Of a stretch of DNA of 64,000 nt, positions 26,811 to 43,561 are shown one piece after another; within the stretch, counting starts at the first letter, position 1, and each line of letters opens with the position of its first letter. The DNA is from Streptococcus oralis. Its GTDB lineage: Bacteria > Bacillota > Bacilli > Lactobacillales > Streptococcaceae. The stretch covers positions 62,001 to 126,000 of the forward strand of contig NZ_CP029257.1 of the NCBI RefSeq assembly GCF_024399415.1, read 5' to 3'. Made by a program: the position numbers and the translations under genes. Below the pieces are notes generated by a model. That model did no database searches. It saw only the letters and a program-made list of their open reading frames with translations, and had not been told where the DNA came from.

Positions 26811-26827
26811 TATCGAAGGAGTGTCAG

Positions 26828-27526: not shown

Positions 27527-28557
27527 AATTAAAAAACTATATTTTAGTGGGGTATCTAGTGTCGACTCTACTAACGATTTTGGTCGTTTTCTGGGCAGTC
27601 CAACGAATGTTGATCGAGAAAAGTGAAGTTTACTTTCTAGTTGGAATGACCATGATTGCTAGTTTCATTGGCGCTGCAGTGAGCATCTTTCTTTTGTCGC
27701 CTGTGTTCTCTTCTCTGAAACATTTGAAAAAACAAGCTCAGGATATAGCCAGCAAAGATTTCAGCACAGAAATTGAAACCAAAGGCCCATTAGAATTTCA
27801 AGAGCTAGGTCAGGCTTTTAATGACATGTCCCACAATTTGCAGGCTACCTTTCAATCACTTGATGAGAGCGAGCAAGAAAAGAGAATGATGATTGCGCAG
27901 CTCTCTCACGATATTAAAACTCCCATTACCTCCATTCAGGTTACTGTGGAGGGAATTCTAGATGGAGTGATTAAGGAAGAGGAACGGCTCCACTACTTAA
28001 CCACGATTGGTCGGCAAACCGAGCGTCTAAACAAGCTAGTGGAGGAATTGGATGTTCTGACTCTTAACACCCAACCTCAAGATACTGCTGATGAAGAAGT
28101 CGAAGAGGTCTTTTTAGATCAGCTGTTGATTGAGTCAATGAGTGAATTTCAACTCCAGATTGAACAAGAGGAGCGAGATGTTTACATTCAAGTATCACCT
28201 GAGTCGGCGAAAATCAAGAGCCATTCTGACAAACTTTCTCGCATTTTGGTTAATTTGTTAAACAATGCCTTTAAATATTCAGAACCAGGAACCAGAATCG
28301 AGGTTCTTGCCCAATTAACAGAACAAGAGCTGACAATCAGTGTGAAAGACGAGGGTCAGGGGATCCTTCCTGAGGATTTGGAAAAGATCTTTAAACGACT
28401 TTATCGTGTGGAAACTTCGCGCAATATGAAGACAGGTGGGCATGGATTAGGACTTGCGATTGCACGCGAACTAGCCCATCAGCTTGGTGGCGAAATCACA
28501 GCAGAAAGTCAATATGGCTTAGGAAGCAAGTTTACATTCAGCCTCAATTTGAAATAA
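27523..28557 (+). CDS. Sensor histidine kinase (TCS08, SaeS-like)
   Basis: 344 residues. Two N-terminal membrane helices (about 5-25 and 38-60) with almost no extracellular loop, that is an intramembrane-sensing kinase, then a HAMP domain (about 60-115), H-box LSHDIKTPITSIQ (H about 130), N-box ILVNLLNNAFKYS, G1 VKDEGQGI and G2 GGHGLGLAIAREL. All catalytic motifs are intact. It is coupled to the response regulator by a four-base overlap. The short sensor loop fits detection of membrane stress or peptides, as in SaeS. Confidence 0.93.
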   Translation: MKLKNYILVGYLVSTLLTILVVFWAVQRMLIEKSEVYFLVGMTMIASFIGAAVSIFLLSPVFSSLKHLKKQAQDIASKDFSTEIETKGPLEFQELGQAFNDMSHNLQATFQSLDESEQEKRMMIAQLSHDIKTPITSIQVTVEGILDGVIKEEERLHYLTTIGRQTERLNKLVEELDVLTLNTQPQDTADEEVEEVFLDQLLIESMSEFQLQIEQEERDVYIQVSPESAKIKSHSDKLSRILVNLLNNAFKYSEPGTRIEVLAQLTEQELTISVKDEGQGILPEDLEKIFKRLYRVETSRNMKTGGHGLGLAIARELAHQLGGEITAESQYGLGSKFTFSLNLK

Positions 28558-28571
28558 AGCCGTAAAATCCC

Positions 28572-28758
28572 TTTACAAATCTAGCTTTTCATGGTACAAT
28601 AGCCTTTGTGTGAAATAGCAGCAGGAAAGCATGAAGCTCGTCAACAGGTGTCTTATGACAAGTAACCTTGGCTGTTTAGGCGAAGGGCATCTGCACGAAT
28701 CAGGGCTTTCTAAGTGACTATTTCCGCCAAATATTATTTATATCAGGAGGACATACAT
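28572..28758 (+). promoter_or_regulatory. rpsD promoter and structured 5' leader (S4 autoregulation candidate)
   Basis: TTTACA (28572-28577), 17-base spacer, TACAAT (28595-28600). The leader of about 150 bases is closed by GAAATAG (28612-28618) pairing with CTATTTC (28718-28724) and contains smaller hairpins. Ribosomal protein S4 represses its own mRNA in many Firmicutes through such a leader. The ribosome site AGGAGGA at 28745-28751 lies just outside the closing stem. Confidence 0.65.
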
Positions 28759-29370
28759 ATGTCACGTTATACAGGACCATCTTGGAAACAAGCTCGTCGC
28801 CTTGGCCTTTCACTTACAGGTACAGGTAAAGAATTGGCACGTCGTAACTACGTACCAGGACAACACGGACCAAACAACCGTTCTAAATTGTCAGAATACG
28901 GTTTGCAATTGGCTGAAAAACAAAAACTTCGTTTCACTTACGGTGTAGGTGAAAAACAATTCCGTAACTTGTTCGTACAAGCTACTAAGATCAAAGGCGG
29001 AATCCTAGGTTTCAACTTCATGCTTCTTTTGGAACGTCGTTTGGATAACGTTGTTTACCGTCTTGGCCTTGCGACTACTCGTCGTCAAGCTCGTCAATTC
29101 GTAAACCACGGTCACATCCTTGTGGACGGAAAACGCGTTGATATCCCATCATACCGTGTAACTCCAGGTCAAGTGATCTCAGTTCGTGAAAAATCATTGA
29201 AAGTTCCAGCAATCCTTGAAGCAGTAGAAGCTACTCTTGGACGTCCAGCATTCGTATCATTCGATGCTGAGAAATTGGAAGGTTCATTGACTCGCTTGCC
29301 AGAACGCGACGAAATCAACCCAGAAATCAACGAAGCACTTGTCGTTGAATTCTACAACAAAATGCTTTAA
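28759..29370 (+). CDS. rpsD: 30S ribosomal protein S4
   Basis: 203 residues, the usual streptococcal length. It binds 16S rRNA early in small-subunit assembly. The start [20 protein letters not shown] is characteristic, and the S4 RNA-binding domain (about 93-155) contains [20 protein letters not shown] and [20 protein letters not shown] 28759 with AGGAGGA upstream is correct; an in-frame upstream ATG at 28714 lies in the regulatory leader. A single-gene unit with a terminator behind it. Confidence 0.98.
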
Positions 29371-29390
29371 TTTTAAGAAATATCTTACAG

Positions 29391-29415
29391 AAAGCCTACA
29401 ACAGTGGGCTTTTTG
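29391..29415 (+). terminator. rpsD terminator
   Basis: AAAGCCTAC and GTGGGCTTT form a short stem followed by TTG; ends rpsD. Confidence 0.75.
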
Positions 29416-29589
29416 CTTTGTCTTAAAATGTTGATTTCTGGGTTTGGGCAATGTCAAAAGGAGTGCTTTTATTCACTGAGAATCTTTCTAGCTATAGTGT
29501 AAAGAAATCCGTGTTTTAGTTGACTTTTCCGCCCTCATTTTCAGCTTTTGTGCTAAAATAGATTTATAAACTTAAGATAAGGAATGTTT

Positions 29590-30396
29590 ATGAAATCGGG
29601 TAATGTATTATTGAAAGGATGCCTTTATTTCTGGGGTGGCTTGTTTTTGCTGGGTCTCTTGGTTCAGGTAGCTCTGCCTTTGGCAATTTGTGGTTTGATA
29701 GGTTTCGGGGCTTATCTAGCCTATAAGCGTTGGCGTTATCCTCTTTTGAAGGATCGTTCTTTGGAAGATCAGATTGAGCTTTTAAAAGCGCGGATTCGTC
29801 AGGCTGATAAAGATATCCAGCAGTTAGAAGAGACCTTGTCTGAGAAAGGCTCAGCAGCCTATAAAAGCCTAGCTAACCAGGTCTTGATTGAACTTCAAGA
29901 AATTCATCAAGAGGCTAATCGTTTAAAATCTTATATTGACGAAGCTGTTTATAGTCGCATTGATAAAAAGGTTCGCTCAGTAAGGGCGACCATAGACGTC
30001 CAGCTAGAGCGACTAGAAAGAGAGAGTCTGGTAGACATCGAAAACAAGGAGCCCGAAGAATTGGCGCCTGAATTGTCTCAGACCTTGGCAAATATTGCTG
30101 CGGACCATCAAGCGATTCTTGACAAAATCGAGTCATCGGATGTTGGAGCCAAAGAAGAGCTGACAGCCATCCATAGTTTAAAAATGGAGAAATTCCAAAC
30201 AATTTTAGAGGGCTATTTAAAGATTAAGGCAAATCCAAAAAATTATAATCGGGCGGAAGAACGCTTGGAACAAGCTAAAGCAGCTATCGAACAATTTGAC
30301 CTTGAACTAGACCAAGTTTTGAGAGAGCTCAATGAAACAGATATGCGCGATTTTGATATTAGCCTGCGTATCTTAGGAAAAGATCGCAAAGAATAG
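29590..30396 (+). CDS. XpaC-like protein (partner of TelA)
   Basis: 268 residues. Two N-terminal membrane helices (about 8-45) are followed by long coiled-coil-like helices (about 55-260) rich in Lys, Glu and Gln. This is the 5-bromo-4-chloroindolyl-phosphate hydrolysis (XpaC) family, an old name without proven enzymatic meaning. ATG 29590 is chosen since AAGGA lies at a good distance; ATG 29584 would touch it. The TelA gene follows after 21 bases, an arrangement widespread in Firmicutes and linked to envelope stress. Confidence 0.82.
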   Translation: MKSGNVLLKGCLYFWGGLFLLGLLVQVALPLAICGLIGFGAYLAYKRWRYPLLKDRSLEDQIELLKARIRQADKDIQQLEETLSEKGSAAYKSLANQVLIELQEIHQEANRLKSYIDEAVYSRIDKKVRSVRATIDVQLERLERESLVDIENKEPEELAPELSQTLANIAADHQAILDKIESSDVGAKEELTAIHSLKMEKFQTILEGYLKIKANPKNYNRAEERLEQAKAAIEQFDLELDQVLRELNETDMRDFDISLRILGKDRKE

Positions 30397-30417
30397 GGTA
30401 GACACAAAGGAGTAACC

Positions 30418-31665
30418 ATGACAGAATTTAATTTTGATATTGATCAGATTGCTAATAATACAGTGGCCAAAGTGGACAAGACAACCGAAATCATCGAGAC
30501 CAATACAGGCTCAGCCCAGACGATCACCTTTCTTGAAAAGCTAAGTCCTGAGCAACAAGAGCAAATCAAGGCGCGCGTCCCTCAGTTGGTGGATCAGTTT
30601 GTCACAGACCAAAATGCTCTCTTGGACTTTGGTCAATCAGCGGTGGAAGGTGTCAATGGTACGGTTAACCGTATTTTGACCGAGCAGAAGAAACTGCAAA
30701 TTCCTCAGGTGGATGACCTGCTGAAAAATACCAACCGTGAGCTCCAAGGTTTTGTAGCCAAATATAAGAATGCTGAAATTGCAGAGTTGGAAGAAAAGCC
30801 AAACTTTTTGCAAAAATTGTTTAAAAAGAGCCAGAACAGTCTGCAAGAATTTTATTTTGACTCAAAAACAGTTGAGCAAAAGCTAGATGGCATGGCTGCT
30901 GCTGTGGTCAAGCAAGAAGATGTGCTGGCGCGAAATATTGTTTCTGCTGAAATGCTGATTGAGGACAATACCAAATCCATTGAAAATCTAGTGGGAGTTA
31001 TTTCCTTTATAGAAGCAAGCCAGACAGAAGCTGGCAATCGTGCTGCAGAACTGAAGGCTCAAGTTGACCAACTAGATTCAAGTACGGTAGAATATCAAAC
31101 CAAGTCCCAAGAATTAGCTCGTATGGCTGAAGTGGTCAATACACTGGAACAACAACATACAGAGTATGTTAGTCGCCTTTACGTAGCTTGGACGACGACT
31201 CCACAAATGCGTAATCTCGTCAAAGTTTCATCGGACATGCGCCAAAAATTGGGCATGCTTCGTCGCAATACCATTCCAACCATGAAGCTTTCGATTGCTC
31301 AACTTGGTATTTTGCAACAATCGATGAAATCAGGTGTCGTGGCAGATGCCATTGTCAATGCCAACAATGCCGCCCTTCAGATGCTAGCTGAAACCAGCAA
31401 GGAAGTGATTCCGCAGATGGAACGAATTGCCCAAAGTCCAACAGTAGCTGTTGAATCCGTCACCAAACTTGCTGAAAGTCTAGTCGCTCAAAACCAAGGT
31501 ATCGTTGCTGCCATTGAGTTGGGACGTCAGAAACGTGCTCAACTAGAAACAACCATCGTCAAATCCGCAGAAATGATCAACGATTCTGTTAAACTCCGCG
31601 ATGAGAAAATCGTCCAAGCCCTTCTAGACCAAGGAAAGGCTGCTCAGAAAGAAGTACAAGAATAA
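30418..31665 (+). CDS. telA: Toxic anion resistance protein TelA
   Basis: 415 residues, soluble, almost entirely helical and coiled-coil rich. Family landmarks: LSPEQQEQIKARVPQLVDQF, the middle LARNIVSAEMLIEDN and YVAWTTTPQMRNLVKVSSDM, and the C-terminal QNQGIVAAIELGRQKRAQLE. TelA proteins were named for tellurite resistance and now are tied to resistance to cell-envelope agents including lantibiotics; the mechanism is not settled. AAAGGAG precedes ATG 30418. It forms an operon with the XpaC-like gene and ends at a shared terminator. Confidence 0.92.
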   Translation: MTEFNFDIDQIANNTVAKVDKTTEIIETNTGSAQTITFLEKLSPEQQEQIKARVPQLVDQFVTDQNALLDFGQSAVEGVNGTVNRILTEQKKLQIPQVDDLLKNTNRELQGFVAKYKNAEIAELEEKPNFLQKLFKKSQNSLQEFYFDSKTVEQKLDGMAAAVVKQEDVLARNIVSAEMLIEDNTKSIENLVGVISFIEASQTEAGNRAAELKAQVDQLDSSTVEYQTKSQELARMAEVVNTLEQQHTEYVSRLYVAWTTTPQMRNLVKVSSDMRQKLGMLRRNTIPTMKLSIAQLGILQQSMKSGVVADAIVNANNAALQMLAETSKEVIPQMERIAQSPTVAVESVTKLAESLVAQNQGIVAAIELGRQKRAQLETTIVKSAEMINDSVKLRDEKIVQALLDQGKAAQKEVQE

Positions 31666-31670
31666 AAATA

Positions 31671-31700
31671 AATCCTCTGCAATGTAGATTTGCAGGGGAT
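31671..31700. terminator. Bidirectional terminator between telA and the HXXEE gene
   Basis: AATCCTCTGCAA and TTTGCAGGGGATT pair with a short loop and have A/T runs on both sides. Confidence 0.85.
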
Positions 31701-31701
31701 T

Positions 31702-32223
31702 TTATTCGTTTTTGTGAACAAGCCAGGTGGAATACTTTCTCCCAAGCCAGAGAGCAAAGAGGAGATTGATGACGACGATGCCTGAACCGACCAGTGAAAA
31801 TAGGAAAAATTCGCTGGTCGAAACTCGCCATAAATGTACAATGTCTGTAATCAAATAAGCACTGACAGGAAAACAAATGGTAGAAGTAATCAGAGCAGGG
31901 ATATACTTGCGAAGAAGGATTGATTGTCCGATATGGAGCAAGAGATGAAGTGCAAAGGCCACAAATCCCCCTAGCCAAACTAGTTCAAGAACTCTAGATT
32001 GAGTAAAATACGCTAATAAAGTGATGGATAAGACAAGGAAAAATTCTTCAAAAACAGCAAGGGCAAATCCCTCTGTTGTCATTTCCTTGTGGATTTTGAG
32101 AATAGTTGGCGCCTTTTGGGCAAGCAAGGTTTCGTTGAGACGGATCCAAGGGACAAGACCGATAATTTCTTCCATATCGTGAAAGATAAAAAGTAGAGGA
32201 AACATCCAAAGATAATACGCCAT
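31702..32223 (-). CDS. HXXEE-domain membrane protein
   Basis: 173 residues, about five membrane helices. The motif HDMEE lies near the N-terminus (residues 15-19, FIFHDMEEIIG), and further conserved histidines follow (ALHLLLHIGQ). This gives the family its name; a metal-site or quinone-linked role is guessed for the family but unproven. Ribosome site CAGGAGAG precedes ATG 32223. It is convergent with telA and is the last core gene before the accessory island. Confidence 0.82.
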   Translation of the reverse strand: MAYYLWMFPLLFIFHDMEEIIGLVPWIRLNETLLAQKAPTILKIHKEMTTEGFALAVFEEFFLVLSITLLAYFTQSRVLELVWLGGFVAFALHLLLHIGQSILLRKYIPALITSTICFPVSAYLITDIVHLWRVSTSEFFLFSLVGSGIVVINLLFALWLGRKYSTWLVHKNE

Positions 32224-32266
32224 AAATCTCTCCTGAAAAGCTAAAGACTGCCAGTAAATAAAGCAA

Positions 32267-32288
32267 AAAACGCCCAGTAAGGCGTTTT
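32267..32288. terminator. Terminator (original rpmG terminator?)
   Basis: AAAACGCC and GGCGTTTT pair around CAGTAA. It lies 10 bases from a duplicated rpmG end, the same order as at rpmG itself (terminator 38369-38394, gene end 38421), so it is probably the terminator rpmG had before the island inserted. Works for both strands. Confidence 0.75.
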
Positions 32289-32297
32289 GAGTTAGGT

Positions 32298-32319
32298 ATG
32301 CTTACTTCACTTCTGTAAA
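32298..32319. repeat. Candidate attachment site, distal copy (rpmG 3'-end duplicate)
   Basis: This 22-base sequence matches 38417-38438 at all but one position. On the minus strand it encodes the last residues of ribosomal protein L33 (FTEVK and stop), with a silent GTG for GTT change. No other part of rpmG is present here. Together the two copies bound a 6.1-kb AT-rich block in direct orientation, as left by a tyrosine integrase acting on the rpmG 3' end. Confidence 0.75.
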
Positions 32320-32697
32320 AATTAACTTCTACTCTTACAAAGCTTATTCTGACATACTTTATAACAGTCTAAAAAAGGTAGAGATTCATACATTATCTAG
32401 ATTTTCTAAAAGTACTCTATTAAACTTAAAACCTGGTTTGGAAAGTATGGGTTTCAGTTGGATTAAAAACAGCGTAATATCAAGGATTTTCAGAACGATA
32501 TCTACTTTTTAATTTCATAAAATTTGAATCAATATTTTTTAAATAGGGGAATAGTTCGGTTCTGTAAGTATTAATATAATGCACCACAAAGCTTATTATA
32601 TCAGTTTTTCCCCAGTTTTAGAAAAATAATTAGAGTAGAAAACAACATCTAGATTTTCCACAAAATCTTTTGTCAAACATTAATGGAAATGAGAATG

Positions 32698-32757
32698 TTG
32701 ATATAATCGTATTGATTAACATTTTTAGGTAACTGCCCCTGTCAGTTTGTAGCCATA
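32698..32757. repeat. Island-internal direct repeat, copy 1
   Basis: It starts TTGATATAATCGTATTGATT and contains the small hairpin AACTG...CAGTT. The related copy 2 is at 35692-35750 in the same orientation; the pair brackets the ApeA gene and its partner. Confidence 0.65.
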
Positions 32758-32808
32758 TTTATAAGCGACCAAAGTCGCAAAAACTGTGTCAATTGTTCCA
32801 ATTTTCAT
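32725..32808 (-). CDS. Possible 27-residue peptide downstream of apeA-like gene
   Basis: ATG 32808 is preceded by AGGATG at a normal distance and opens a 27-codon frame, starting MKIGTIDTVFATLVAYKYGY and ending TGAVT. It follows the ApeA gene by 96 bases on the same strand. Its 3' end lies inside repeat copy 1; the matching segment at copy 2 has no open frame. It could be a real small peptide or a chance reading frame. Confidence 0.3.
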   Translation of the reverse strand: MKIGTIDTVFATLVAYKYGYKLTGAVT

Positions 32809-32904
32809 TAAAACATCCTAAAAGTTAGATGAATATCTTCTCCAAGGATTTTAGTTTTGTATTTATAATTAAAAACAGAAAACATTGAGCTAATGGCTTG
32901 GCTT

Positions 32905-34347
32905 TTAGAAATTTTTATATTTATATTTCATATCCAATTCTTGATAAATATAGTATCTCAAAACTTCTTGAAGAAGCAACTTTGTTTCATACATCTCACT
33001 GATATCTGTTATCATTTCTGGATAGTTATCTTTCGAATTCCCATGAGTATAGTAATTCCGTGTTTGAATTAATTTTATTATTAGTTGTTCTCTCTCACGA
33101 TTCGAAAAAATTTTAGACAGATTAAGCTCATCAATTGAATCGAATAAATTTTTTAAACGTTCGGAAAGATTAGGCTCTTTTTGATTAAATTTCAATTTAT
33201 TTCTAAATTTTCTTCTCACTTCTTCTAAAAGATGTGTGTTTATAAAGTCAAACAAAGATTGTCTAGCTTTTTCTTCAACATCAGATAAACATTTCGGAAT
33301 TTTAAAATTCTTAAAATTCCTAGAGTAAACTTCTAAATTTCTAATAGCATCAACCAACTGATCTTCCAAGTATAAATCACCATGAAGATTTTTTGAAAAT
33401 TGTCTCACTATAAATTCAAGTTCCTCAGATTTATCAAACCAATGATTTAAAATATGTTCAAAATTATCTTCTAATGTCCTCAAAGAAATATCTTGCTGAG
33501 AATACGATTTCCATTTTTGGGATTTTCTAGAATGCTGAACAAAGAATTTACCTTTTATAAGTGGCATACGCTTACCATCTATCATTTTATAAAGAACAAG
33601 AAATTCAATATTAGTAAAAGACAATGGTATACTTGATAAAATCTCAATAAATTCCTTAAACTTATGTGAAGCTTGATAAAATTCATCAAAATATCTTATA
33701 TTCAAATCAGCTGAAGTAAGTTTAATAAAATAATCACTGGTAAATGACGTAGTTGTATATGAAGAATGGAGTATTGCCACATCTTCAAAGTTCATTCTTA
33801 GTGATCTTATTAACACTTTTGTTGGTTGATATTCACTTACTGCACTTTCAAAAATAGTTTGATTTTCTCTATATTTAACAGTTACCAATGATTTTTCAAT
33901 CCATTCCTCAATATGTTCAAAGCTAAATTTATATTCCTTGATTTTTTCAGAATCTAATTCATTAATTAAATCTTTAAAGGCCTCAGAACTATAATCAAAA
34001 TTTCCGAGCTCATTATAAAATACACTGTAAATTTTAAAATTTTTTACTCTATATCTAGTTATCGGAAATCCAGGAGATGAGGAATGTACCATTGGTTCAC
34101 CATAAGTATTTAAAATTAAAATATTACCATTACTGGAGAAGCCATATATCTTTTCCAAACTCTTACCAAAACCGAATGAAATGCCTGATTCCTCCTCAAA
34201 TCCACCAAATAATTCTAATACAATTTCACTAGGAGAATAATGTAAAATACCGCTCAAGTTATCCTTTCTAACTATATCATCGGAACGTTCTGAAAAATAT
34301 CCTTTTATTTCAAACTCTTTATCCCAAGTGTAATCTTTAAATTTCAT
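32905..34347 (-). CDS. apeA: ApeA-like anti-phage HEPN protein
   Basis: 480 residues. The N-terminal ApeA domain (about 1-330) contains GYFSERSDD, LSGILHYSPSEIVLELFGGF and many beta strands. The C-terminal helical domain (about 335-480) is HEPN-like and carries the RX4H motif in TRNYYTHGNS (R430, H435), the usual RNase site. ApeA proteins provide single-gene abortive-infection defence in which the HEPN domain is needed. ATG 34347 with AAAGGA upstream. Composition is strongly AT-rich compared with core genes, indicating transfer. An unknown zinc-ribbon gene lies 82 bases upstream on the same strand. Confidence 0.85.
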   Translation of the reverse strand: MKFKDYTWDKEFEIKGYFSERSDDIVRKDNLSGILHYSPSEIVLELFGGFEEESGISFGFGKSLEKIYGFSSNGNILILNTYGEPMVHSSSPGFPITRYRVKNFKIYSVFYNELGNFDYSSEAFKDLINELDSEKIKEYKFSFEHIEEWIEKSLVTVKYRENQTIFESAVSEYQPTKVLIRSLRMNFEDVAILHSSYTTTSFTSDYFIKLTSADLNIRYFDEFYQASHKFKEFIEILSSIPLSFTNIEFLVLYKMIDGKRMPLIKGKFFVQHSRKSQKWKSYSQQDISLRTLEDNFEHILNHWFDKSEELEFIVRQFSKNLHGDLYLEDQLVDAIRNLEVYSRNFKNFKIPKCLSDVEEKARQSLFDFINTHLLEEVRRKFRNKLKFNQKEPNLSERLKNLFDSIDELNLSKIFSNREREQLIIKLIQTRNYYTHGNSKDNYPEMITDISEMYETKLLLQEVLRYYIYQELDMKYKYKNF

Positions 34348-34429
34348 ATTATCCTTTCTGATTGCTTTTCAAAAATCTTCACAACTTTCTAAACTATGAT
34401 TTTTATGTCGGCACTACCTTTTAATTGTA

Positions 34430-35545
34430 TTAGACCAGCTTCCAATTCTCATCATTCGAGTTATCAATCAGAATCTTTCTTTTATTACTCAGTAATTCAT
34501 CACTCACAAAATATTGGCCTAATCGCTCTATCAAGCCACAGTTTTGGCAAGTATACAGATAGTCTTCTTTTAATTCCTCTACTAAAATAGTATTGAACTC
34601 ATATGGTTTTCTACACTCTTCACAAAACATGCTAAGATTATCACTACTAAATAGTAAATCAAAAATACTTTCTAATTCTTTATTTTCTTCTCCAGATAAA
34701 GCAAAAATTATCTTTAAATTTCTAATATACCGGTTAAGGATAACTATTTCGGAATCAATATCAAAATATTTCTCGAATATAGCAATAGCTACTTCTACTA
34801 AATAAATTAGAATGTAGGGTGTTTTCTCATAGAACAAATGCCAAAAATCATCCCAAATCTTATCATCGGAAAATATAAAATTAAGATTTCGCTTTTCTGT
34901 AGGATAATTTTTATTCTTTGTCACCAAATGAATAGATTGATCAAATACACTTGTTAAACTATTTTCTCCCTTTCGATTATATATAATGTCATATAGTAAT
35001 TCAGGATCAAGTAATTCTTTACTAAAATCCAAAAAATCATTTTCAGACTGAATCGATTCTTTTGCTTTTAAAAATAGGTCAATAACAAATTCTTTTTTAC
35101 CCTTCAAATTACTTACGTCATATTCCCTAGGGGATCCATATTGTATTTTTTCTAAAAAATCATGTGGTTGAACCAATATCCAACTTAAATAAAATAAATT
35201 ATCTTGAAAAGGTTTCCTAGCGAGAGAAAATGCAACAGTAACTTTTCCTCTCTCTATACAACTCAGAGATTCAAATAGATAGTAATTTAAATCACGTAAA
35301 ATTGAAAAAAAGATGTGAGGTATATATACATATTCAGAAATATCTAAATCTTTTTGCCTATCTAGTTCATCAAATAAGTCAATTTCACCATCTATCTCTT
35401 TAGTAAATCTAAAAGATAGGCTTGATAATTGATATTTATCAGCTTTAACCAACATATCAACTAGTATATCATACAAATATAGCATTAATTGATGACGTTT
35501 TCTATACTTAGTTGGTAATAATTCTGATATGTGAGATTTAGCCAA
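34430..35545 (-). CDS. Unknown protein with C-terminal zinc ribbon, upstream of apeA
   Basis: 371 residues from a TTG start at 35545, chosen because GAGGAAAG lies five bases before it; no ATG is well placed. The first 300 residues look alpha-helical. About residues 75-125 (FFSILRDLNYYLFESLSCIE and the LARKPFQDNLFYLSWIL part) faintly resemble the helical DUF5677/HEPN-like class, but no RX4H motif is evident. The C-terminus has a clear zinc-ribbon pair, CEEC (308-311) and CQNC (333-336). It and ApeA are probably one operon. Function unknown; an accessory or sensor in phage defence is inferred only from position. Confidence 0.7.
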   Translation of the reverse strand: MAKSHISELLPTKYRKRHQLMLYLYDILVDMLVKADKYQLSSLSFRFTKEIDGEIDLFDELDRQKDLDISEYVYIPHIFFSILRDLNYYLFESLSCIERGKVTVAFSLARKPFQDNLFYLSWILVQPHDFLEKIQYGSPREYDVSNLKGKKEFVIDLFLKAKESIQSENDFLDFSKELLDPELLYDIIYNRKGENSLTSVFDQSIHLVTKNKNYPTEKRNLNFIFSDDKIWDDFWHLFYEKTPYILIYLVEVAIAIFEKYFDIDSEIVILNRYIRNLKIIFALSGEENKELESIFDLLFSSDNLSMFCEECRKPYEFNTILVEELKEDYLYTCQNCGLIERLGQYFVSDELLSNKRKILIDNSNDENWKLV

Positions 35546-36009
35546 TATTACTTTCCTCAATTCTTTTTAACTCTACATAACTATATTATACTCTAAAAGC
35601 ACTCAGTCTTTATCTAAAAGGTTTCTATATAACTCAACAATTATTTTAAGTGTAAACCTATAAAAAGTACTTTGCAAAAAGATTTGAAATATTGATATAA
35701 TCGTATCAATTATCGTTTTAAAGCAACTGATTTTGGCAGTTTCCAGTCATATTATAGTGTTCTTAGTTCAAGTCCAAAAATTTTATTAACTTTCCGAACA
35801 ATACTTATTTTTCGGAAACCTAAGAATAATAGTTACAGTTTTATGAGTTTGTAGATTTAATGCAAAAAATATATGTTTGTTATGATATAATAAAGGTGCT
35901 TGTTTCTCAGACTTATAAGACTTATAAATAGTAGTTTTTGTTTTTTTAAGAATGCTCATTTAATATTAATGGCAAATATAATAGTTCTTTAGGGGGATAG
36001 TAAAGTAAG
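35546..36009. other. Divergent promoter region of the island
   Basis: This AT-rich region serves the zinc-ribbon/apeA pair (minus-strand -10 TATAAT, complement of 35585-35590) and the 661-codon gene (extended -10 TGATATAAT, 35883-35891). It also holds repeat copy 2 (35692-35750) and the hairpin TTTCCGAA (35791-35798) / TTCGGAAA (35811-35818). No ORF longer than a few codons is supported. Confidence 0.55.
35692..35750. repeat. Island-internal direct repeat, copy 2
   Basis: It shares TTGATATAATCGTAT and the AACTG...CAGTT hairpin with copy 1 (32698-32757), while the hairpin loop and flanks have drifted. The first 18 bases also form an inverted repeat, TTGATA-TAATCG-TATCAA. Confidence 0.65.
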
Positions 36010-37995
36010 ATGGATATTTTAATTGATAAATTATTAGTTGTACTAAAATTTTGTTTAAGAAAAATTTTAGAGTTATTTTTCTTTATTATTGAAATTGTAA
36101 TACATCCAATAAAAAATATTTCGATTTGGATGATAGTGTTATTTTCGAGCTTAATAATGGGAAATATTTCGATTCAATTAACTGGCAAAGACATGTTTTT
36201 GATGTCAGCTGGTTTAGTATCAATAATGATATTTATATCAAATTTTCTAGAGAAACAGACAGTTGATATAGATAATAAAGATAATTTCTATTTAGGTTAT
36301 AATATTAAAAAATTAAAATTCCATGATAATTTCTGGTTAAAAAGATTTAATGAACTTCCTGTTAGCCTTCTATTTTGGCTAATAGCTGGTTTTCCAATAA
36401 TTGTTATCTGTTCAAAGTTAGAATTCAATATCGGAATATTTAATAATGTATTTAAGAGTATGAATGAAAATATCGAATATATCAAAGTGATTTGGATTTC
36501 TGGCTTTGTAGTCGTTTCAACTTATTGTACAGCGCTTTTGATAGAATCAGTAGCATTATCTAGTAAAGCCTTTTCACAAAGTTATTTATATAAGACTACT
36601 GATTTATATGAAAAAATAAAAATAGGAAAAGAAATTGAACAGTCTTTTAAAAAACTATTCAATAACATTTTTAGCTTTAAAACTATAGTAGGATTAGAGG
36701 ATGATTTACAATTTAAAATTGAAAGAGGAATTGATTACATTATAAATAGAGGTGCAGAAGTTAGTTCAGATGAGGAAGAATTACATCAGTTCTATAATCT
36801 GGCATTTAATTGTGAATCAAAAAAAATAGACGTTTTAATAAAAAGAATAAAGAAGTATTATAAAACTGAAGAAAATAAAAAAATAAGATATATAATTCAT
36901 GCTATTTTTCATGAAAGAAATCTAAACATTATTTACTGGTATTATATATACAAGTGGAATACCTTGAATCATTTAAAGGTAATGCCTACAGAAATTCTAA
37001 ATCTTGCAATAACAGATTTCTGGAAATTGCTTGATATAGAAAATGACTTTTATGAGAACGAAGATTATCAAGAGATATTTTGGAAAATCTGTAATGAAGA
37101 TACAAAAGGTGTTCGATTGCCGTCTCGAGTTCATAAATCAGATCAAGATAATATAAAAAGAAATTATTGTATTTATAGAATATATTTAGTAATGATAGAA
37201 AAAGTAGAAGATATTAACTTTTTAAATCAGTTGAAAGATCTTAAAGATTTGAAAAATTTATTGAATGTTTTGGAGAAAATTGATAAAAAAGGAAAAAACA
37301 GCAAGTATTTTTCATCTATTTTTTCAATTCTATTCACACGGACTATTGATAGGAAGTATAAAGATAGCGATTTTATTAATTCATTCTCAAAAATGATGAG
37401 TGATAAGTACATGCCAGAATATCTCAAGAATGAACGAATTAATCGTAGTAAAAATATTTTATTGAGTGGAGAATCTACCGAATATTTGATGGATAATAAT
37501 GCTTTAGACTATCTTTTGATGTTTATGAAATTTGAGGATATTATTTTAGTATTGACTTTCTGTTTAGCTTATTCAGAACGATCGGGTAAAGAAGTAATGA
37601 AGATTGAAGAATTTAAAATATGGAAAAAATCTATTAATAGACAATATTTGGAAGAAAACATCGAAGATTTAAGACAATCAGAATTTTTGTGTGAGTTATC
37701 TAAAGATTCAAAGGTGTCCCATTTTATTTCTGAAGAATTTATTAAATGGATGTGGGACTCAATATTTAAACCGTTTGATGAAAACATGTATGAAGAATTT
37801 ATGAAGCTTGGAGAAGATGGAACTAGAAGTAATTTCAGCTTGGATAGATATTTTGTTGTCAGATTGCTATTATGTAGTTATGTGAATAGATCAGTATCGC
37901 TTTATGATTTTAAAGAAGATAGTAAATATAAAATTGAAAAAGAATTAAGTAGTATTAAAGTGATATTAGAAAATGAAAATATCTATTTATTCTAA
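36010..37995 (+). CDS. Large membrane-anchored protein of unknown function
   Basis: 661 residues. An N-terminal hydrophobic stretch (about 10-35) and four membrane helices (about 38-56, 62-82, 116-138 and 158-182) are followed by about 480 mostly helical, charged residues in the cytosol with no motif I recognise. The region is very AT-rich (the 60 bases at 36841-36900 hold only 8 G or C). It is divergent from the apeA pair. An AGGGGGAT ribosome site lies rather far (about 12 bases) from ATG 36010. A membrane effector of a defence system is a reasonable but unproven guess. Confidence 0.7.
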   Translation: MDILIDKLLVVLKFCLRKILELFFFIIEIVIHPIKNISIWMIVLFSSLIMGNISIQLTGKDMFLMSAGLVSIMIFISNFLEKQTVDIDNKDNFYLGYNIKKLKFHDNFWLKRFNELPVSLLFWLIAGFPIIVICSKLEFNIGIFNNVFKSMNENIEYIKVIWISGFVVVSTYCTALLIESVALSSKAFSQSYLYKTTDLYEKIKIGKEIEQSFKKLFNNIFSFKTIVGLEDDLQFKIERGIDYIINRGAEVSSDEEELHQFYNLAFNCESKKIDVLIKRIKKYYKTEENKKIRYIIHAIFHERNLNIIYWYYIYKWNTLNHLKVMPTEILNLAITDFWKLLDIENDFYENEDYQEIFWKICNEDTKGVRLPSRVHKSDQDNIKRNYCIYRIYLVMIEKVEDINFLNQLKDLKDLKNLLNVLEKIDKKGKNSKYFSSIFSILFTRTIDRKYKDSDFINSFSKMMSDKYMPEYLKNERINRSKNILLSGESTEYLMDNNALDYLLMFMKFEDIILVLTFCLAYSERSGKEVMKIEEFKIWKKSINRQYLEENIEDLRQSEFLCELSKDSKVSHFISEEFIKWMWDSIFKPFDENMYEEFMKLGEDGTRSNFSLDRYFVVRLLLCSYVNRSVSLYDFKEDSKYKIEKELSSIKVILENENIYLF

Positions 37996-38237
37996 GGAAA
38001 TATTGAAGTGAAGTAAACTGATGAAGAATAGATAATTAGAGGGCAGATTTGTTATTTGAGATTAATTAATGTATGATAGGATGTATATTTCCCTTTTTCA
38101 ATTAATCATAGTAAAAAAATTTCAAATTTTTAAGGTATAGTAGTCTTACAAAATCCTTTAATAAAATGATTTTAATATATAGTGAAATACTTCTCTCTCA
38201 AACCAGGTCATACGATTTATAAGTAAAAGAACAAATA

Positions 38238-38273
38238 AAAAAGAGGAGCTTCACACTAAAGTTCCTCTTTTTT
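38238..38273 (+). terminator. Terminator of the 661-codon gene
   Basis: AAAGAGGA and TCCTCTTT pair around a loop of about 17 bases, followed by TTTTAAAT. Confidence 0.7.
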
Positions 38274-38301
38274 AAATATCCGAATCATTATTCTTATTTC
38301 T

Positions 38302-38325
38302 AAAAAGGTAGTGAAAAAGGTAGTG
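38302..38325. repeat. Tandem 12-base repeat near the island end
   Basis: AAAAAGGTAGTG occurs twice without a gap (38302-38313, 38314-38325), about 90 bases inside the proximal attachment-site copy. Short direct repeats at this distance are typical arm-type sites for tyrosine integrases; that role is inferred. Confidence 0.6.
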
Positions 38326-38368
38326 ATTCGAATGATTTATATTGCAATGTACTGAAATTAACAAAAAG

Positions 38369-38394
38369 AAAAAACGCTTGAAATCAGCGTTTTT
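38369..38394. terminator. rpmG terminator (island-derived)
   Basis: AAAAACGC and GCGTTTTT pair around TTGAAATCA. It serves rpmG on the minus strand and may replace the older terminator now at 32267-32288. Confidence 0.8.
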
Positions 38395-38416
38395 CTTATG
38401 TATTGATTCGTATTGA

Positions 38417-38438
38417 ATGCTTACTTAACTTCTGTAAA
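38417..38438. repeat. Candidate attachment site, proximal copy (rpmG 3' end)
   Basis: Contains the final codons and stop of rpmG; matched by 32298-32319 with one mismatch. The integration keeps the L33 reading frame intact. Confidence 0.75.
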
Positions 38439-38570
38439 CACAACGTGTTTGCGAAGTTTTGGTGAGTATTTCTTCAATTGAAGACGGTCTGGAGTGTTAC
38501 GTTTGTTTTTAGAAGTAAGGTACAAGCGTTCACCAGATTCTTTGTGTTCAAGTGTAATATTTACGCGCAT
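38421..38570 (-). CDS. rpmG: 50S ribosomal protein L33
   Basis: 49 residues, starting [20 protein letters not shown] and ending KHVVFTEVK. This is the zinc-free type (no CxxC pair), implying a second, zinc-binding paralogue may exist elsewhere. It is 15 bases downstream of rpmF and co-transcribed with it. Its 3' end is the likely integration target of the neighbouring island. Confidence 0.96.
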
Positions 38571-38585
38571 GGTATCTCCCTTCTA

Positions 38586-38768
38586 TTATTCAGCTGATGC
38601 AGCTTTAGCGATTTTACGTCCTTTGTAGTATCCTTTAAGTGATACACGGTGAGAACGTGAGTAATCTCCAGTAGTTTCGTCAAAGTTTACAGATGGAGCT
38701 GTTACTTTGTAGTGTGTACGACGTTTGTTTTTCTTCGCTTTTGACGTGCGACGTGCAGGTACTGCCAT
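38586..38768 (-). CDS. rpmF: 50S ribosomal protein L32
   Basis: 60 residues, starting [20 protein letters not shown], the classic basic L32 N-terminus. No zinc-binding cysteines are present, so it is the zinc-independent form. AAAGGAG lies before ATG 38768. It heads the rpmF-rpmG operon. Confidence 0.97.
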
Positions 38769-38824
38769 TTTCTTTTCTCCTTTAGGTATTTAAATTCGAT
38801 TCAATCTACTGATTTTCATCAACC

Positions 38825-38853
38825 ATACTAGGATAACACATTTTTTTTGTAAA
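38825..38853 (-). promoter_or_regulatory. rpmF-rpmG promoter
   Basis: On the minus strand, TTTACA (38853-38848), 17-base spacer, TAGTAT (38830-38825). Confidence 0.75.
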
Positions 38854-38952
38854 GTAAAGTTACTTGACAAAAAAAGATGAAAAAATTAGAAGCTAGTAAT
38901 CGAAATTTTCTGAAAATTCAAGAATTTCCTTCTGTTCATTGCCTTTAAAATG

Positions 38953-38961
38953 TGCTATAAT
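38953..38961 (+). promoter_or_regulatory. ilvD extended -10 promoter
   Basis: TGCTATAAT is an extended -10; the -35 is weak (TGTTCA at 38933-38938, 17-base spacer). Ribosome site GGGAGGG precedes ATG 38989. Confidence 0.7.
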
Positions 38962-38988
38962 AGTAAAAACTGAAACGGGAGGGAACAA

Positions 38989-40692
38989 ATGACTGAATTA
39001 GATAAACGTCACCGCAGTAGCATTTATGACAGCATGGTTAAATCACCAAACCGTGCCATGCTTCGTGCCACTGGTATGACAGATAAGGACTTTGAAACAC
39101 CGATTGTGGGAGTGATTTCGACTTGGGCGGAAAATACACCATGTAACATTCACTTGCATGATTTTGGGAAATTGGCGAAAGAAGGTGTTAAATCGGCAGG
39201 TGCTTGGCCTGTTCAGTTTGGTACTATTACCGTAGCGGACGGGATTGCCATGGGAACGCCTGGTATGCGCTTCTCTTTGACATCTCGTGATATCATCGCG
39301 GACTCCATCGAGGCGGCGATGGGTGGTCACAATGTGGATGCCTTTGTTGCTATCGGTGGCTGTGATAAGAACATGCCTGGTTCTATGATTGCCATTGCTA
39401 ATATGGATATTCCAGCTATTTTCGCTTATGGTGGAACCATTGCACCCGGAAATCTTGATGGCAAAGACATTGACTTGGTTTCGGTATTTGAAGGAATCGG
39501 AAAATGGAACCACGGTGACATGACAGCTGAGGACGTGAAGCGTCTCGAATGCAATGCCTGCCCTGGCCCTGGTGGCTGTGGTGGTATGTACACGGCTAAT
39601 ACCATGGCGACTGCTATCGAAGTTCTAGGGATGAGTTTGCCAGGATCATCCTCTCACCCAGCTGAATCAGCTGACAAGAAAGAAGATATCGAAGCAGCAG
39701 GACGTGCTGTTGTTAAGATGCTGGAACTTGGTCTCAAACCATCAGATATCTTGACTCGTGAAGCCTTTGAAGATGCCATCACTGTAACTATGGCTCTCGG
39801 TGGTTCTACAAATGCCACTCTTCACTTGCTTGCCATTGCCCATGCTGCCAATGTTGACTTGTCACTTGAAGACTTCAATACAATCCAAGAACGTGTGCCT
39901 CACTTGGCCGACTTGAAACCTTCTGGTCAGTATGTCTTCCAAGACCTCTACGAAGTCGGTGGTGTCCCTGCGGTTATGAAATACCTCTTGGCGAATGGTT
40001 TCCTTCATGGCGACCGCATCACATGTACTGGTAAGACAGTCGCTGAAAACTTGGCTGACTTTGCAGACCTTACACCAGGCCAAAAAGTCATTATGCCACT
40101 TGAAAATCCAAAACGTGCAGACGGTCCGCTTATCATCTTGAACGGGAACCTTGCCCCTGACGGTGCGGTTGCTAAAGTATCAGGTGTGAAAGTGCGTCGC
40201 CACGTTGGACCAGCTAAGGTCTTTGACTCAGAAGAAGATGCTATCCAGGCTGTCTTGACAGATGAAATCGTTGATGGCGATGTTGTCGTTGTTCGTTTCG
40301 TTGGACCTAAGGGTGGTCCTGGTATGCCTGAGATGCTGTCGCTTTCATCCATGATCGTTGGTAAAGGCCAAGGAGACAAGGTTGCCCTCTTGACAGACGG
40401 ACGCTTCTCTGGTGGTACTTATGGTCTGGTTGTTGGACATATCGCTCCTGAAGCTCAGGATGGTGGACCGATTGCCTACCTTCGTACAGGTGACATCGTT
40501 ACGGTTGACCAAGATACCAAAGAAATTTCCATGGCCGTATCCGAAGAAGAACTTGAAAAACGCAAGGCAGAAACAACCTTACCACCACTTTACAGCCGTG
40601 GTGTCCTCGGTAAATATGCTCACATCGTATCATCTGCTTCACGCGGAGCCGTGACAGACTTCTGGAATATGGACAAGTCAGGTAAAAAGTAA
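38989..40692 (+). CDS. ilvD: Dihydroxy-acid dehydratase
   Basis: 567 residues. It dehydrates 2,3-dihydroxy-isovalerate and -methylvalerate to the keto acids of valine and isoleucine synthesis. The iron-sulfur cysteines are visible in [15 protein letters not shown] (about C52), [12 protein letters not shown] (about C125) and [20 protein letters not shown] (about 188-207). [17 protein letters not shown] is the conserved C-terminal signature. It stands alone, apart from the ilvBN-ilvC genes. A BOX element follows directly. Confidence 0.97.
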
Positions 40693-40696
40693 ACTC

Positions 40697-40800
40697 ATAC
40701 TCTTCGAAAATCTCTTCAAACCACGTCAACGTCGCCTTGCCGTACTCAAGTACAGCCTGCGGCTAGTTTCCTAGTTTGCTCTTTGATTTTCATTGAGTAT
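40697..40800. repeat. Short BOX element without boxB
   Basis: It has the same ends as the other two BOX copies (ATACTCTTCGAAAATC and GATTTTCATTGAGTAT) and a boxA-like GTCGCCTTGCCG core, but is 104 bases long because the boxB hairpin module is missing. Confidence 0.88.
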
Positions 40801-40802
40801 CA

Positions 40803-40834
40803 AAAAGCAAGCCATCTTCGGCTTGCTTCTTTTT
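40803..40834. terminator. Bidirectional terminator
   Basis: AAAGCAAGCC and GGCTTGCTT pair around ATCTTC, with A and T runs; ends ilvD and the convergent gene at 40858. Confidence 0.85.
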
Positions 40835-40857
40835 ATCTTCAAAAGTGATTTGCCTCA

Positions 40858-41199
40858 TTAACGAGGTGGCAGTCCAAGGGCAATACGGCCGTAGCGACTG
40901 ATTCGTGTGATCTTCCATGCAGGAGACCAGGTAACTTCAACCTTGACATCTTCGATACCCTCGATTTGTTTCAGACCTGCGACGATTTCGATAGGCAAGC
41001 TTTCGGCACAATCGCAGGCAGTATCAGTGAAAGTCATGACAATCTTGCAGAGACCCGTTTCATCTAGATTGATTTCATAAATCAGTCCTAGATTGTAAAC
41101 ATCCAATTCCACATCTGTATCAAAAACCTTCTCTAGTTTTTCGATAATTTGGTCTTGTAAGGCCAAAGCTCGGTCATTGATTTTGATATCGTCTCTCAT
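40858..41199 (-). CDS. Metal-sulfur cluster assembly factor (MIP18/SufT-like, DUF59)
   Basis: 113 residues. The conserved core DVYNLGLIYEINLDETG and the cysteine motif TFTDTACDCAESLPIEI match the PaaD/SufT/YitW family, which helps mature Fe-S proteins. The C-terminus (WKITRISRYGRIALGLPP) is the usual family ending. It is convergent with ilvD, an Fe-S enzyme; the link is suggestive only. AGGGAC before ATG 41199 acts as ribosome site. Confidence 0.9.
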   Translation of the reverse strand: MRDDIKINDRALALQDQIIEKLEKVFDTDVELDVYNLGLIYEINLDETGLCKIVMTFTDTACDCAESLPIEIVAGLKQIEGIEDVKVEVTWSPAWKITRISRYGRIALGLPPR

Positions 41200-41366
41200 A
41201 ACAGTCCCTCCACGTGATAAATATCCTCTATTTTCTCATAATTCTGACAATTTGGCAAGTTTTTGATGAATTTTCTGAAAAGACTCTCTTGCGATTTTCT
41301 CCTCTCACTGTTTTAATCCCTCTATTTATGGTAAAATAAGACTATTAAGTTTAAAGAGGATTCCCT

Positions 41367-42647
41367 ATGAAATTACAAAAACCAAAAGGAACGCAGGATA
41401 TCTTGCCTGCTGAATCTGCCAAATGGCAGTACGTTGAGGGCTTTGCCCGTGAAATTTTCAAGCGCTATAACTATGCAGAAGTGCGCACGCCTATTTTTGA
41501 GCATTACGAGGTTATCAGTCGCTCTGTCGGAGATACAACGGATATCGTAACCAAGGAAATGTACGATTTCTACGACAAGGGTGACCGCCATATTACCCTC
41601 CGTCCAGAAGGAACTGCGCCCGTTGTCCGCTCTTATGTGGAAAATAAACTCTTCGCACCAGAAGTGCAAAAGCCAAGTAAGTTCTATTACATGGGCCCTA
41701 TGTTCCGTTATGAGCGTCCACAGGCAGGGCGTTTACGCCAATTCCACCAGATTGGTGTTGAGTGTTTTGGCTCTAGCAATCCAGCTACCGATGTGGAAAC
41801 CATCGCTATGGCAGCTCATTTCTTGAAAGAAATCGGTATCCAAGGTGTCAAATTGCATCTTAACACTCTTGGAAATCCTGAGAGTCGTGCGGCTTACCGT
41901 CAGGCCTTGATCGATTATTTGACACCGCTCAAGGAGACCTTGTCTAAGGATAGCCAACGTCGCTTGGAGGAGAATCCTCTCCGTGTCTTGGACTCTAAGG
42001 AAAAAGAAGACAAGGTGGCAGTGGAGAATGCACCTTCTATCTTGGACTTCCTTGATGCAGAAAGCCAAGCTCATTTTGATGCTGTGCGTCAGATGTTGGA
42101 AAATCTGGGTGTAGACTATATCATCGATACCAATATGGTACGTGGTTTGGACTACTACAATCACACCATTTTCGAGTTTATCACTGAGATTGAGGGCAAT
42201 GACTTGACAGTCTGTGCGGGTGGTCGCTACGATGGTTTGGTTGCCTACTTTGGTGGTCCTGAGACTGCTGGATTTGGATTTGGTCTTGGTGTAGAACGTC
42301 TGCTTCTCATTCTTGAAAAGCAAGGAGTGTCTCTCCCTATCGAGAATGCCCTAGATGTCTATATCGCAGTCTTGGGTCAAGGGGCAAATGTCAAGGCTCT
42401 GGAGTTGGTACAGGCTCTTCGCCAACAAGGTTTCAAAGCAGAGCGTGATTACCTCAACCGTAAACTCAAAGCTCAGTTCAAGTCAGCCGATGTCTTTGCG
42501 GCTAAGACTCTCATCACGCTAGGAGAGAGCGAAGTCGAAAGCGGACAAGTGACAGTTAAGAACAACCAAACTCGAGAAGAAGTTCAAGTGTCACTTGATG
42601 CTATCAATCAAAATTTTTCAGAAATCTTTGAAAAACTAGGATTTTAA
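41367..42647 (+). CDS. hisS: Histidyl-tRNA synthetase
   Basis: 426 residues, class II synthetase charging tRNA-His. Motif 2 region [32 protein letters not shown], the histidine-A motif [11 protein letters not shown] and motif 3 [13 protein letters not shown] are all present, with an anticodon-binding domain after residue 330. Extended -10 TGGTAAAAT at 41329-41337. No T-box leader is visible. Confidence 0.98.
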
Positions 42648-42660
42648 TGACAGATAAACT

Positions 42661-42690
42661 GGTCAGGAAAACATTCCTGACCTTTTTCTT
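42661..42690 (+). terminator. hisS terminator
   Basis: GGTCAGGAA (42661-42669) and TTCCTGACC (42674-42682) with an AACA loop, then TTTTTCTTTT. Confidence 0.92.
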
Positions 42691-42717
42691 TTGCAAAATG
42701 ACAAAAATCATAAACTT

Positions 42718-42760
42718 TTTGACAAATATGCTTGTCAAAAATAAAAAGATATGTTACAAT
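42718..42760 (+). promoter_or_regulatory. Promoter and operator of the XRE-regulated membrane operon
   Basis: The inverted repeat TTTGACA (42718-42724) / TGTCAAA (42733-42739) overlaps the -35 TTGTCA (42732-42737); the -10 TACAAT (42755-42760) follows after 17 bases. The first operon gene encodes an XRE regulator, so autoregulation is likely. Confidence 0.72.
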
Positions 42761-42793
42761 GAAATCAAGATAAGAACAAAGGAGAAAAAAGAC

Positions 42794-42997
42794 ATGCTAA
42801 AAAATCGTCTAAAAGAGCTTCGGGCTCGCGATGGCCTGAATCAAACAGAGCTGGCCAAACTAGCTGGCGTGTCCAGGCAAACCATCAGCTTGCTTGAGCG
42901 GGATGAGTACACGCCATCCATCGTCATTGCCCTGAAGATTGCTCAGATATTCCATGAGCCGGTCGAGTCGGTCTTTCGTTTAGAGGAGGATGAGTGA
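42794..42997 (+). CDS. Small XRE-family transcriptional regulator
   Basis: 67 residues, a single helix-turn-helix (ELRARDGLNQTELAKLAGVS and SRQTISLLERDEYTPS) of the Cro/YdcN/YozG type. ATG 42794 has AAAGGAG upstream; an in-frame ATG at 42653 lies ahead of the terminator and promoter and is excluded. The next gene starts at its stop codon (TGATG). It heads an operon of membrane proteins, an arrangement common in streptococci where the regulator represses its own envelope genes. Confidence 0.9.
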   Translation: MLKNRLKELRARDGLNQTELAKLAGVSRQTISLLERDEYTPSIVIALKIAQIFHEPVESVFRLEEDE

Positions 42998-43200
42998 TGA
43001 ACAAGTATAAAGTGATTTATTATCTATCTATAGTTGTGTTTATCGTAAATCTTTTGGCTATGATTGGAAGCCTATTTGGTTGGTTTACGATCGTAGAAGG
43101 CAAGTACCTCTTCTGGAATAATATAGTGCTACTATTAGTCTTTAGATGGGTAGAGAAAAAAATAAAATTTAAAGAGCTCGTAAAAGGAGAAAAGTTATGA
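42997..43200 (+). CDS. Small two-helix membrane protein
   Basis: 67 residues with two hydrophobic helices (about 8-30 and 36-53) and a basic tail (WVEKKIKFKELVKGEKL). The start overlaps the XRE stop (TGATG), and its stop overlaps the PspC-gene start (ATGA, 43197-43200), so all three are coupled. Family not recognised. Confidence 0.8.
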   Translation: MNKYKVIYYLSIVVFIVNLLAMIGSLFGWFTIVEGKYLFWNNIVLLLVFRWVEKKIKFKELVKGEKL

Positions 43201-43547: not shown

Positions 43548-43561
43548 AAAGAGGTTAAAAT

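Follow-up and report, generated by a model that had tools for sequence, protein, structure and literature searches.

A probable cis-mobilizable element at the 3' end of rpmG in Streptococcus oralis, with mosaic cargo and a candidate ApeA-ZnR two-gene unit

The closest described counterparts of the element considered here are the cis-mobilizable elements (CIMEs) of Streptococcus salivarius, the classical ones of which are 1.2-13 kb in length, with composite islands at rpmG, rpsI, fda and rplL (PMC7563491). Both rpmG and rpsI are published integration targets (PMC4701971), and the rpmG integrase family, Tyr_6, has its integrase at the element end that is opposite rpmG (PMC5357655, PMC4701971), a name which here is applied by position, that is, rather than by tree. 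The subject of this article is a 6.1-kb stretch, the island, which is found at the 3' end of rpmG in S. oralis (contig NZ_CP029257.1), within 64,000 nucleotides of that contig which in their entirety are the window. The island carries genes for an ApeA-like protein, for a protein designated here as ZnR, and for a protein of 661 amino acids (aa), and it very probably is a CIME. Both the kind of element and the site that it occupies have been described before; the novelty lies in the mosaic, and in ApeA-ZnR as a possible two-gene unit.

The 3' end of rpmG recurs in direct orientation at the far end of the island (Table 1), matching at 21 of 22 positions (95%; repeat family D10), with the sole mismatch, GTT to GTG on the rpmG strand, keeping valine, i.e., being silent. 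An initial interpretation of this DNA, the original prediction, had pointed to that duplication, and also had named chance resemblance as what would undo it. As 21 is the best value within the 8.4-kb stretch that was scanned, while 200 first-order Markov simulations of such a stretch gave at best 19, the duplication stands. Integration at this end of rpmG is further borne out by empty sites. At three of 38 rpmG sites (35 from relatives, plus L108, L113 and the window; here L numbers designate loci and G numbers genomes), an intact rpmG is joined directly to the same terminator that in the window lies beyond the island, followed by the HXXEE-domain gene (L069, L070 and L076), which is the configuration that had been suggested as a check. 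Because this hairpin is directly 3' of rpmG in those three empty sites, it is the native rpmG terminator. That is, of the two terminators that had been noticed, one at each copy of the repeat, the left one belongs to rpmG and the right one is part of the element's right end. Several further rpmG sites, which have a plain terminator after rpmG and which lack the known neighbour, may be empty as well.

The island's ends resemble those of other rpmG elements. Five of 56 loci (L071, L075, L082, L088 and L091) have a full-length tyrosine integrase, of 421-426 aa, at the far end beside the distal attachment site, with PF00589 found in both of the two rpmG-type integrases that were scanned; a sixth, in L112, runs off the end of its contig, and L085, L091 and L092 have short C-terminal pieces. 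Between integrase and distal attachment site, those same five loci have motifs which by eye are like AAAAAGGTAGAGA, the arm-type repeat found singly at the distal end of the island. At the rpmG-side end, paired arm-type repeats are seen about 97 bp beyond rpmG, within 260 bp, at 16 of the 38 sites, the window included. This arm pattern is loose, missing occupied sites such as L091 with its integrase, and 16 of 38 therefore is a lower figure. The rpmG 3' end, a published target, is an occupied hot spot in other genomes too, which agrees with the original prediction, where it was taken for a known target of streptococcal tyrosine integrases.

The island itself has no integrase. Searching with seven integrases from related loci (tblastn, E up to 1e-4) returned nothing from positions 26001-44000 of the window, as had been anticipated, and the two PF00589 matches in the island's own genome, neither of them at rpmG, are to open reading frames (ORFs) of 361 and 248 aa, which from their sizes I take to be host Xer proteins. 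Once overlaps are removed, only three ORFs of at least 90 aa are present in the island, those for ApeA, ZnR and the 661-aa protein, which are the three genes that had been named as lying between the repeats, and in none of them were relaxase or conjugation domains found using Pfam, PADLOC or NCBIfam. Like the CIMEs of S. salivarius, the island possesses attachment sites at both ends, here as direct repeats, along with cargo, but no functional integrase, relaxase or conjugation genes (PMC7563491). There are differences as well, with the S. salivarius survey able to detect CIMEs only in tandem whereas the island stands alone, and with the ApeA-ZnR portion of the island's cargo, unlike that of those CIMEs, flanked by core matches of another site, rpsI (PMC7563491). 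Relative to Tyr_6 integrative and mobilizable elements (IMEs) or integrative and conjugative elements at rpmG, the target is the same and arm-type repeats are placed as in L082 and L071, but those elements carry an integrase and replication or mobilisation genes, which the island does not.

It is the combination of attachment repeats, empty sites, arm-type repeats positioned like those of comparable elements at rpmG, and no integrase which leads to the reading of the island as a CIME, a concept that the decayed, integrase-less element of the original prediction matches. Such a CIME would have been derived from an integrative element whose integrase sat at the end away from rpmG, and presumably could move only via an incoming element, one with a matching integrase, recombining at one of the CIME's ends. 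Weighing against this are that no intact parent element with the same cargo was found; that the island's own genome, as searched with an rpmG-type integrase and no positive control, gave no match; and that any view of integrases in rpmG elements is bounded by the 20 kb over which these were followed.

The island might, instead of going back to a conjugation-linked element, be the remnant of a phage satellite, i.e., of something like a phage-inducible chromosomal island (PICI). The phage collection that was searched includes many satellites among its streptococcal entries (at least 20), and the S. mitis satellite record Javan305 possesses 62 bp of the island's right end, at 88.7% identity. Those 62 bp, however, sit after a toxic-anion gene, away from the integrase and primase genes of Javan305, and so would seem to belong to an adjacent rpmG element. 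None of the three proteins, ApeA, ZnR and that of 661 aa, is matched in 50,697 phage records, nor do viral contigs supply a confirmed relative of ZnR or the 661-aa protein, with ApeA not searched for there. The rpmG-type integrase does match 1677 phage records, though all at less than 60% identity, and at no more than 36.0% among the 20 listed, while among the three ORFs there is neither an integrase nor the satellite replication or packaging genes of a PICI. With the cargo absent from the phage collection, no satellite genes, and Javan305 providing the context that it does, a satellite origin is improbable and was set aside in favor of a CIME.

ApeA is described as a single gene, whereas in the window the ApeA gene is preceded by that of ZnR. 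Known ApeA is a HEPN defence protein (Gao et al. 2020, as named in PMC10952713), and the window's protein shares with it an ApeA_NTD1 domain (PF18862, 61.2 bits versus a cut-off of 25.5) and an Apea-like HEPN domain (PF18739, 69.5 bits versus 24.4) with its Rx4H motif, the latter found at the same place in all 11 aligned proteins. The protein also matches a PADLOC model of the candidate PDC-S58 across its length (764 bits), and S. thermophilus ST55 is recorded as having PDC-S58 (PMC11514479, Table 3). Searching by sequence found no relative among solved structures, and ApeA, PDC, HEPN and rpmG go without mention in the main text of a S. thermophilus defence paper (PMC12322248) as well as in a S. 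suis paper (PMC12479173). A defence function for the island is predicted, that is, from the family to which ApeA belongs.

ZnR is encoded directly upstream of ApeA, with a gap of 82 nt and in the same order as in seven other genomes. Its start likely is the TTG at 35545, which by eye is preceded by GAGGAAAG, and the resulting length of 371 aa is that of several relatives as well. Cysteines C313, C316, C338 and C341 are invariant in all 22 aligned relatives, and the C-terminal region containing them, to which any likeness is limited, gives weak, sub-cut-off matches to A2L-like zinc ribbons and DUF7836 (for DUF7836, 16 of the 22 relatives have E values of 0.5 or lower, the best being 6.6e-05). 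For the first approximately 300 residues, Pfam, NCBIfam and PADLOC give no family at E up to 1, and comparison by sequence with solved structures gave nothing usable, the best match (E = 0.032) pairing the ribbon part with a 33 kDa chaperonin chain. Relatives number 137 by sequence search and at least 181 by profile, with those named among the matches coming from Streptococcus, Gemella, Bacillus and Oceanobacillus, and with loci also from Diplocloster and B. subtilis. In the B. subtilis locus (L130 2812-7073) the relative starts 7 bp past a gene that by eye is ATPase-like, and an ORF that by eye resembles a transposase interrupts it. Plasmids gave four weak ZnR matches, each of less than 30% identity; a distant relative (28.7%) on a Pontibacter plasmid (L140 1833-7940) lies among AbiEii and RES/Xre toxin-antitoxin genes. 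A class-level search found ZnR in 2 of 398 genomes, the window's included, with the neighbours in the other genome being uninformative. Among the top-listed papers on ApeA, on PDC-S58 and on CIMEs in defence, none was found to describe the ApeA-ZnR pair; ZnR itself lacks a name by which to search.

The association of the two genes can be followed across 284 genomes of the genus. ApeA matches are found in 17, of which eight have ZnR, and in all eight ZnR adjoins ApeA on the same strand. That nine of the 17 are without ZnR counts against a fixed pairing, though mostly these are fragments or distant copies. With ApeA stretches of at least 76% identity, eight of ten genomes have ZnR and the two that do not (G295 and G086) are truncated, while full-length, uninterrupted ApeA genes at that identity have ZnR directly upstream in seven of seven cases, a count which excludes G125, with its interrupted ApeA, and includes G153, with its truncated ZnR. 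Among the remaining matches are three full copies of ApeA at 45-48% identity, all without ZnR, the other four being fragments or weak. Those three distant copies (L109, L110 and L111) apparently occupy, by eye, one conserved spot with prmA and rarA as neighbours. In S. iniae (L107 8374-11037), ApeA is split by an insert having a 284-aa ORF of a family that recurs within the same locus, probably an insertion sequence. ZnR itself is present in 14 of the 284 genomes, i.e., eight times with ApeA, three times with a protein of a 174-aa family, once alone, and twice as fragments. The 174-aa-family protein, which has no Pfam match and which is shortened in G216, follows ZnR in place of ApeA in three loci, two of which, L091 (S. 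suis) and L113, are beside rpmG, the third being L112 (S. orisratti), and this substitution suggests that ZnR is an adaptor with exchangeable partners.

As to what the two proteins might do, it is somewhat probable that ApeA would act as a HEPN ribonuclease which halts phage growth by cutting RNA, with ZnR a partner that either senses infection or restrains ApeA. The pair might instead be toxin-antitoxin-like, kept for the sake of the element's stability rather than for defence, since HEPN proteins are toxins in many gene modules (PMC3710099) and an integrase-less element presumably would gain from addiction. ZnR nevertheless occurs without ApeA, and ApeA without ZnR (G233, G245 and G160), making this rather unlikely.

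The pair's surroundings point beyond rpmG. It is flanked by two 66-bp repeats (76% alike; repeat family D1) that contain matches to the rpsI core, defined here as the 33 bp at the 3' end of occupied rpsI alleles, and no others reaching 24/33 are found on either strand of the window. Similar arrangements are seen elsewhere. In L101 there are cores to both sides of the pair (33/33 and 28/33), a third at rpsI (31/33), and an integrase fragment near rpsI; in L102 and L103 there again are cores to both sides (30/33 and 29/33), with the left flank of the pair in L103 common to L101. The pair lies 589 bp from rpsI in L101, 305 bp in L102 and 4.0 kb in L104. In genome G029 the rpmG site is empty (L070) and the pair instead is near rpsI (L102), 95.9% identical to that of the window, while G029's longer matches to the window's DNA left of rpmG have 80-89% identity, short repeat-like hits excluded. 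I read this comparison as exchange, subject to the caveat that conserved genes show similarity just as high as that of the pair. There is precedent for nesting, that is, a tandem in a secondary site within an rpsI IME (PMC5357655).

A third site is ebfC. In S. minor (L105) the pair is between exact 18-bp copies of the 5' end of that gene (as recognised by PF02575), and in S. caviae (L114) ZnR without ApeA is found in an ebfC-site element that has 62-bp end repeats, with two mismatches, and a 383-aa integrase, ebfC there having been identified by clustering. The ebfC repeat was not found in L117. In L105, L106, L107, L091 and L113, similarity to the window's DNA ends at 35598-35613. ZnR fragments some 130 bp long, close to an rpsI-type core, are present as well in L119 (9416-9722) and L120 (9456-9765), and probably are what is left of this cassette in another two genomes.

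The third gene has a context of its own. In another S. oralis locus, L115, the 661-aa gene is in a 3.5-kb stretch which is bounded by 37-bp repeats (36/37) of the 3' end of fda, as that gene was recognised by eye; a transposase-like ORF, also by eye, is within the same stretch. The gene is found in 2 of the 284 genomes, the window's included, i.e., one relative among 283 others. The protein has at least 98 database matches, counting itself, but none above cut-off to Pfam, NCBIfam or PADLOC, no match on plasmids, and nothing usable among solved structures as searched by sequence. A retained fda site was sought in the island's 661-aa segment and was rejected, its score being 9 with shuffles reaching 11 and 12.

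With the pair found at rpmG, near rpsI and at ebfC, and the 661-aa gene at fda, the cargo probably has moved between elements that have different targets. The island's cargo would have been drawn from two or more contexts elsewhere. One of these would have supplied the ZnR-ApeA pair, on either side of which there are matches to rpsI attachment cores, and another the 661-aa gene, whose segment lies between fda repeats in S. oralis. A number of observations tell against such origins. The window's rpsI-core matches are imperfect (30/33 and 28/33), and no rpsI-type integrase lies between them. No core of at least 24/33 is found at the rpsI end of L102 itself, on either flank of the pair in L104 (which has one only at rpsI), or anywhere in L105-L107. 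Conserved genes are 94.1-97.0% (rpsI-rplM) and 97-99% (rpmG end) identical, or in G029 94.4% and 98.6%, respectively, and no trace of the fda repeat is present in the island. The rpsI cores in the window could be carried-along flanks. More ambitiously, ZnR-ApeA might be a two-protein defence system, with ZnR as sensor or adaptor having exchangeable partners, in the form of a compact, 2.7-kb cassette that moves among rpmG, rpsI and ebfC elements, a proposal which is tentative and on balance doubtful.

The outer repeat could record an old integration, with homologous recombination or transformation bringing in the cargo only afterwards. Natural competence is a trait of Mitis streptococci, copies of the pair elsewhere have 94.5-96.1% identity to it, and a dispersed repeat within the island, found also where ZnR is truncated in L104, could seed recombination. 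Later arrival is a serious possibility if short of a probable one, but it concerns the assembly of the mosaic, and does not contradict the attachment-site evidence at the outer ends upon which the CIME reading is built.

The three genes had been proposed to make up one composite defence system, and they do lie together, with ApeA a defence candidate. The 661-aa gene, however, is opposite in direction to the pair, is without it in L115, and is missing from all seven of the other genomes in which ApeA and ZnR are found together, such that all three co-occur only in the window's genome and otherwise are found in different contexts, fda in the one case and rpsI or ebfC in the other. As the 661-aa gene does not travel with ApeA-ZnR, a single three-gene system is highly improbable; only ApeA-ZnR looks like one unit, and the 661-aa membrane protein probably is independent cargo, perhaps also defence-related. 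Of the original prediction, integration at rpmG, the empty sites, the hot spot and the decayed, integrase-less element hold, while the three-gene composite system, as it was put, is unsupported.

Table 1. Features of the island and its surroundings, with positions in the window.
Feature	Position	Strand	Basis
HXXEE-domain gene, neighbour of rpmG at the empty site	31702..32223	-	PF13787, 90.8 bits; L069, L070, L076
Native rpmG terminator AAAACGCCCAGTAAGGCGTTTT, separated from rpmG by the island	32267..32288	-	Same hairpin in empty sites
Distal attachment site, copy of rpmG 3' end	32298..32319		21/22 versus 38417-38438
One arm-type repeat AAAAAGGTAGAGA, distal end	32372..32384	+	Motif comparison
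Dispersed non-coding repeat within the island	32425..32585		Copies or parts in own genome and in L104, L072, L073
rpsI-type core match left of ApeA-ZnR	32693..32725	-	30/33
ApeA-like protein, 480 aa	32905..34347	-	ApeA_NTD1 and HEPN, RNYYTH at residue 430
ZnR, 371 aa from likely start, C-terminal four-cysteine ribbon	34430..35545	-	Listed ORF reaches 35560
TATAAT, possible -10 box for ZnR-ApeA	35585..35590	-	By eye
rpsI-type core match right of ApeA-ZnR	35687..35719	-	28/33
Segment carrying the 661-aa gene, common to the fda-bounded stretch	35805..38170	+	86.6% over 2384 columns, L115 8490-10859
661-aa protein	36010..37995	+	Hydrophobic segments up to about residue 185, another at 501-521
Two overlapping arm-type repeats AAAAAGGTAGTGA, rpmG-side end	38302..38326	+	Similar pair at 15/37 other rpmG sites
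Hairpin now 3' of rpmG, element right end	38373..38396	-	Similar right ends at rpmG in other genomes
rpmG-side attachment site	38417..38438		Direct repeat and empty-site comparison
rpmG (ribosomal protein L33), target gene	38421..38570	-	PF00471, 68.4 bits

Rfam and tRNA scans of the window gave no matches. The dispersed repeat has copies or parts within its own genome at L137 9387-9547, 14196-14322 and 4244-4309, and in L104 it abuts the point of ZnR truncation. Separately, an integrase of 388 or 389 aa is present at L069 5984-7150 and L076 8006-9175, just past the match to about position 29446 of the window, with the gene at that match (in the window up to approximately 29.4 kb) taken by eye for rpsD, which may be another integration target. 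The record Javan305 begins with an integrase of similar length, as compared by length.

A lone CIME, though undetectable by the method of the S. salivarius survey (PMC7563491), is findable through empty sites. The island's cargo includes two families, ZnR and the 661-aa protein, that are without assigned function, and offers a two-gene form of ApeA that is directly testable. It also provides a case of defence-candidate cargo changing carriers, with the pair found at rpmG, near rpsI in Mitis-type genomes and at ebfC in S. minor, and with the 661-aa gene found at fda. If the proposal of a ZnR-ApeA defence cassette is true, then defence cargo would pass between families of site-specific elements, with the attachment cores of one family left inside another.

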